From the NCBI GenBank assembly GCA_947259305.1, contig CAMYML010000010.1, forward strand, positions 1 through 37,852: a stretch of DNA of 37,852 nucleotides, written 5' to 3'. The stretch comes from an uncultured Gammaproteobacteria bacterium. Its GTDB lineage: Bacteria; Pseudomonadota; Gammaproteobacteria; GCA-001735895. A program made the translations under genes and the position numbers. Below, one piece after another: positions 1 to 143 of this stretch. The notes beneath the pieces are model-generated. The model was not told the DNA's origin, made no database searches, and worked only from the letters and a program-made list of their open reading frames with translations. Numbering within the stretch: the stretch's first letter is position 1; the number at the start of each line of letters is the position of its first letter.

Positions 1-143
1 CTTTTGCAACGAAAATTTTGAATCAGATCACTGGCTGCAGGCGTTATCTTCGGACATTTAGCGCGCCGACCGTGTCGGCGCGATAAATCTCCGAAGATAA
101 CGCCTGCAGCCTGTGATCTGATTCAAAATTGTCGTTGCAAAAG
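1..143. repeat. 143-bp near-perfect palindrome (long hairpin)
   Basis: Base i pairs with base 144-i over the whole segment. Arms 1-70 and 74-143 match at 66 of 70 positions, with mismatches at pairs 13/131, 32/112, 55/89 and 61/83, around a 3-base loop (71-73). The arms contain no evident ORF. The palindrome begins exactly at the first base of the window, so its left boundary is not known. As RNA it would fold into one long hairpin; as DNA it could extrude a cruciform. It may be a MITE-like or palindromic intergenic repeat, or a terminator for a gene to the left. The four mismatches argue against a simple assembly fold-back, which would be perfect. Confidence 0.9.

Follow-up and report, generated by a model that had tools for sequence, protein, structure and literature searches.

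What is a near-perfect palindrome of 143 bases doing at the very first base of a bacterial contig, i.e., is it a mobile element, a regulatory hairpin, a genuine duplication or an artefact? This question is raised by the window analyzed in this work (the whole stretch of 37,852 nucleotides), which starts at base 1 of contig C10 (44,101 bp) of the source genome G000, a draft of 4.29 Mb in 368 contigs (93% complete and 3% contaminated) that was probably assembled from a metagenome. Since the window opens at base 1 of the contig, its start coincides with the real end of the contig rather than with an arbitrary cut.

A recount of the pairs confirmed the preliminary description of the structure, i.e., a near-perfect palindrome at positions 1–143 with 66 of 70 pairs matched (94% complementarity) around a three-base loop (Table 1). 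Mismatches occur at four pairs, 61/83 (G.A), 55/89 (C.C), 32/112 (T.T), and 13/131 (A.G), all of them transversions. The chance of at least 66 matches in 70 pairs was calculated as 1.3 × 10−34 per site, which gives about 3 × 10−26 expected occurrences per genome, and the predicted RNA fold of bases 1–160 reached −113 kcal/mol against −40 on average for shuffled sequences (z = −20). The window contains no other inverted repeat of this class; the runners-up have arms of 21–26 nt with 77–81% complementarity. The pairing extends as far as contig base 1, and the left border of the palindrome thus lies off the contig.

Table 1. Features of the palindrome and of the adjacent downstream region (positions within the window).
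Feature	Position	Strand	Remarks
Left arm	1..70	.	inverted copy of 74–143 with 4 substitutions; flush with contig base 1
Loop CGT in GC-rich core hairpin GCGCCGAC-CGT-GTCGGCGC	71..73	.	9 perfect pairs adjoining the loop
Right arm	74..143	.	native intergenic DNA preceding the protease gene; homologous to relatives from about base 82
TGTGATCTGATTCAAA, CRP/FNR-like site	113..128	+	kept upstream of orthologues: CGTGATCTATTTCAAA (L016), TGTGATCCGATTCAAA (L020), TGTGAACCGATTCGAA (L019)
DUF4124 + trypsin-like serine protease, 358 aa	210..1286	+	PF13511, PF13365

The gene downstream of the palindrome made it possible to trace the origin of the two arms. Orthologues of the protease were identified in about half of 30 other genomes of the same genus, and the similarity of their upstream regions (genomes G029, G023, G016, and G006) to that of the window was plain from base 144 onward. 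In two of them the collinear alignment extended into the right arm, as far as about base 82 for G029 (locus L016) and about base 103 for G023 (locus L020); the arm alone gave a shuffle p of about 0.005, while the full stretch 74–209 scored above all 200 shuffles. The left arm, read in its own orientation, showed no similarity to the relatives. As the right arm aligns with the relatives and the left arm does not, the right arm is the old upstream DNA and the left one is its inverted copy. At the mismatch sites 83, 112 (with G023 and G006), and 131, the right arm carries the base shared with relatives; at site 89, where the alignment is gapped, the left arm may match the base of G029. No long palindrome was found in any of the 17 loci carrying orthologues or fragments of the protease gene. 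Together with the CRP/FNR-like site, a GCTATAAAT box about 50 bp further downstream (the −10-like TATAAAT at about 168–176) is conserved in front of the protease gene in several genomes of the genus (L016, L020, and L019).

The gene order in G029 is ectC (ectoine synthase), a chromate-transporter (chrA) remnant, and the protease gene. In the source genome, ectC and the chrA remnant close contig C135 on its right side; by synteny with G029, the last base of this contig falls 148 bp short of the position homologous to window base 82. Judging from this gene order, C135 and C10 very probably adjoin each other, with a small unassembled gap between them. Because C135 ends just upstream, the palindrome lies at an ordinary assembly gap, and the adjacency of the two contigs argues against a chromosome end. 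The preliminary description had suggested an assembly break at a repeated element; the break is borne out by the contig end at base 1 and by the gap in synteny, but the sequence concerned is single-copy. It was also observed that in both the source genome (L117 and L128) and G029 (L016) a decayed remnant of the chromate-transporter gene separates ectC from the protease gene, whereas in other genomes (L018, L019, and L021) an intact copy immediately precedes the protease gene.

A control survey of 920 stretches (8.19 Mb, mostly metagenomic contigs) was scanned for inverted repeats with loops of up to 60 bases. The pool comprised about 120 contigs of the source genome (about one third of them all), contigs of related genomes, and 769 stretches of viral metagenomes that had been selected with arbitrary 16-mers. 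Only three inverted repeats scored above 30, i.e., the window palindrome (58) and those of L476 (42) and L756 (69), and none of them was inside a contig, where the top score of any interior inverted repeat was 27. In L476, a viral contig of 8761 bp, the palindrome (positions 1–98, 45-bp arms with one mismatch) starts at base 1, and in L756 (L756:7983-8178) the palindrome, with perfect arms of 69 bp, ends at the last base of a 16,063-bp record. The probability that both would be placed flush at random is about 3 × 10−8 (2/8761 × 2/16,063). In each of these two contigs an arm lies within a gene, and the inverted copy disrupts the reading frame and ruins the protein sequence; they are therefore not plausible biological elements, and we take both palindromes to be artefacts. 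The window palindrome has the same anatomy, i.e., a native arm, a short seed hairpin, an inverted copy, and the contig end. The flush placement of all three is a signature of contig-tip fold-back chimeras. Among roughly 200 surveyed ends of the source genome, a single one carried such a tip, so this is not a general fault of the assembly, a point that counts against an artefact.

These observations point to a fold-back (snap-back) chimera at the contig tip, rather than a mobile element or a regulatory hairpin, as the best explanation of the palindrome, with a probability that we estimate at somewhat more than three in four (0.77). The copy is flush with the contig end, and one arm is native while the other is its inverted copy, as expected of a fold-back product. 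Chimeric reads of the fold-back or palindromic type, with short inverted repeats as seeds, have been documented for library preparation, with the PDSM model (PMC10908179), and likewise for whole-genome amplification (PMC6218980). In the present case, the native upstream DNA (right arm) would hold a short GC-rich inverted repeat at about bases 62–82, and the core hairpin around the loop CGT is the probable native repeat that seeded the event. While the library was being prepared or the DNA amplified, a single-stranded terminus would fold on this repeat, prime itself and copy the strand back, so that the new left arm would be complementary to the right one in reverse. In a low-coverage gap, the assembler would then run the contig into the chimeric sequence and stop there, and an inverted copy exactly flush with base 1 would be the result. 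Both the self-priming step and the low coverage are inferred from the final arrangement.

The main caveat to the fold-back chimera concerns the identity of the arms. An exact copy should differ from its template only through polymerase or read errors, and here there are four mismatches in 70 pairs, versus one in 45 in L476 and none in 69 in L756. The mismatches located 10 and 16 pairs away from the loop may fall within a native seed hairpin that was imperfect from the beginning, while those at pairs 39 and 58, outside the seed, have to be explained by errors of reading or of the polymerase, by strain variation, or by mutations acquired after a genuine inverted duplication. As for other assembly effects, a large inverted duplication that the assembler had collapsed was rejected because the genome carries the protease gene only once, and a break at an exact repeat in the de Bruijn graph was rejected because only 12 identical bases lie beyond the outermost mismatch, due to which the contig end is not a shared k-mer.

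The strongest alternative, which we nevertheless consider unlikely, is a genuine, lineage-specific inverted duplication, in which template switching or fold-back repair at the core hairpin within the cell copied 50–70 bp of the upstream region into a long imperfect palindrome, and short reads subsequently failed at the palindrome, so that the contig ended there. Such a duplication need have no function, or it could form a cruciform or a transcript hairpin upstream of the protease gene. The four substitutions between the arms could be mutations that followed the duplication, the predicted fold is very stable, and C135 and C10 both stop near the locus, as expected of a hairpin that is hard to sequence. 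On the other hand, all four differences are transversions, the palindrome is absent from every other genome searched, the pairing runs exactly to contig base 1, and the survey revealed no palindrome of such size inside any contig, those at contig ends being flush. A little more doubtful still is the complete form of this scenario, i.e., a real and recent 143-bp palindrome upstream of a secreted-type protease gene, formed by in-cell fold-back copying, with the CRP-like promoter site duplicated in inverted orientation.

It is very improbable that the palindrome is a copy of a MITE, of a REP/ERIC-like repeat, or of another dispersed palindromic element, in spite of a size and symmetry that resemble those of ERIC-type elements (about 127 bp). 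Across all contigs of the source genome, a BLAST-type search detected it at one locus only, together with its own reverse complement, and all other matches were noise of 14–29 nt. Searches of 94 further genomes at the genus, family, and class levels, of 40 further genomes from the family (largely overlapping the 94), and, in sensitive mode, of plasmid and phage collections gave no match; exact 18–19-mer matches to the core in viral and GTDB collections were limited to four scattered singles in unrelated records, about the number expected by chance. The single copy in 4.29 Mb and its absence from the 94 relatives, plasmids, and phages all but rule out a MITE or other repeat. In addition, the right arm represents the ancestral DNA in front of the gene, not an insertion. 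The idea of a palindromic repeat or MITE, put forward in the preliminary description together with the remark that a lone copy without relatives would refute it, is not supported, as exactly such a lone copy was found. Small dispersed inverted repeats were observed in the source genome, where GTCATCCCCGCG(C/A)AAGCGGGGATC occurs in several copies (L049:22-91, L051:3689-3758, and L075:186-234). Further short recurring palindrome families were GGGGACAGTATACTTAATTCC and GGGGTCAGGCCTTACAATT.

A regulatory RNA hairpin, also proposed at the outset, gained no positive support; a structured RNA was rejected for the lack of any Rfam match at gathering thresholds and of a conserved hairpin upstream of the orthologues. 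Finally, a linear replicon that ends in a covalently closed hairpin telomere, with the sequence running around the loop, would explain a small loop and a position flush with the contig end, but it is hardly credible, because the corresponding locus of G029 is interior to a 1.4-Mb contig, C135 supplies the expected upstream neighbour in the source genome, a hairpin end should give perfectly complementary arms, and no telomere resolvase (PF16684) is encoded in the genome (the control search was positive in 1 of 14 genomes); the missing resolvase and the continuing synteny were the grounds for rejecting the end of a linear replicon.

From the practical point of view, a long near-perfect palindrome that starts at base 1 or stops at the final base of a draft contig should be regarded as a fold-back chimera and removed by trimming before any MITE, hairpin RNA, or telomere is called. 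The survey provides a simple test, i.e., whether the palindrome is flush with the contig end and whether one of its arms is native in relatives. It also indicated fold-back tips that should be trimmed from two unrelated IMG/VR contigs (L476 and L756).

Compared with known systems, the window palindrome shares with ERIC, REP, and MITE repeats its intergenic location, imperfect symmetry, and comparable length, but in contrast to them it is not dispersed, has no conserved family, and draws its arms from local native sequence. It resembles natural quasi-palindromes formed by template switching in being a near-perfect inverted copy around a small hairpin, whereas it differs from them in having neither an interior example in the survey nor an allele common to relatives. 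With the chimeras described in PMC10908179 and PMC6218980 it shares the overall design, i.e., the original strand followed by its inverted complement and centred on a short native inverted repeat; mismatched bases also occur in palindromic artefacts described in PMC10908179. Unlike the documented chimeric reads, it persists as an assembled contig end, and it carries more mismatches than the two comparison contigs of the survey.
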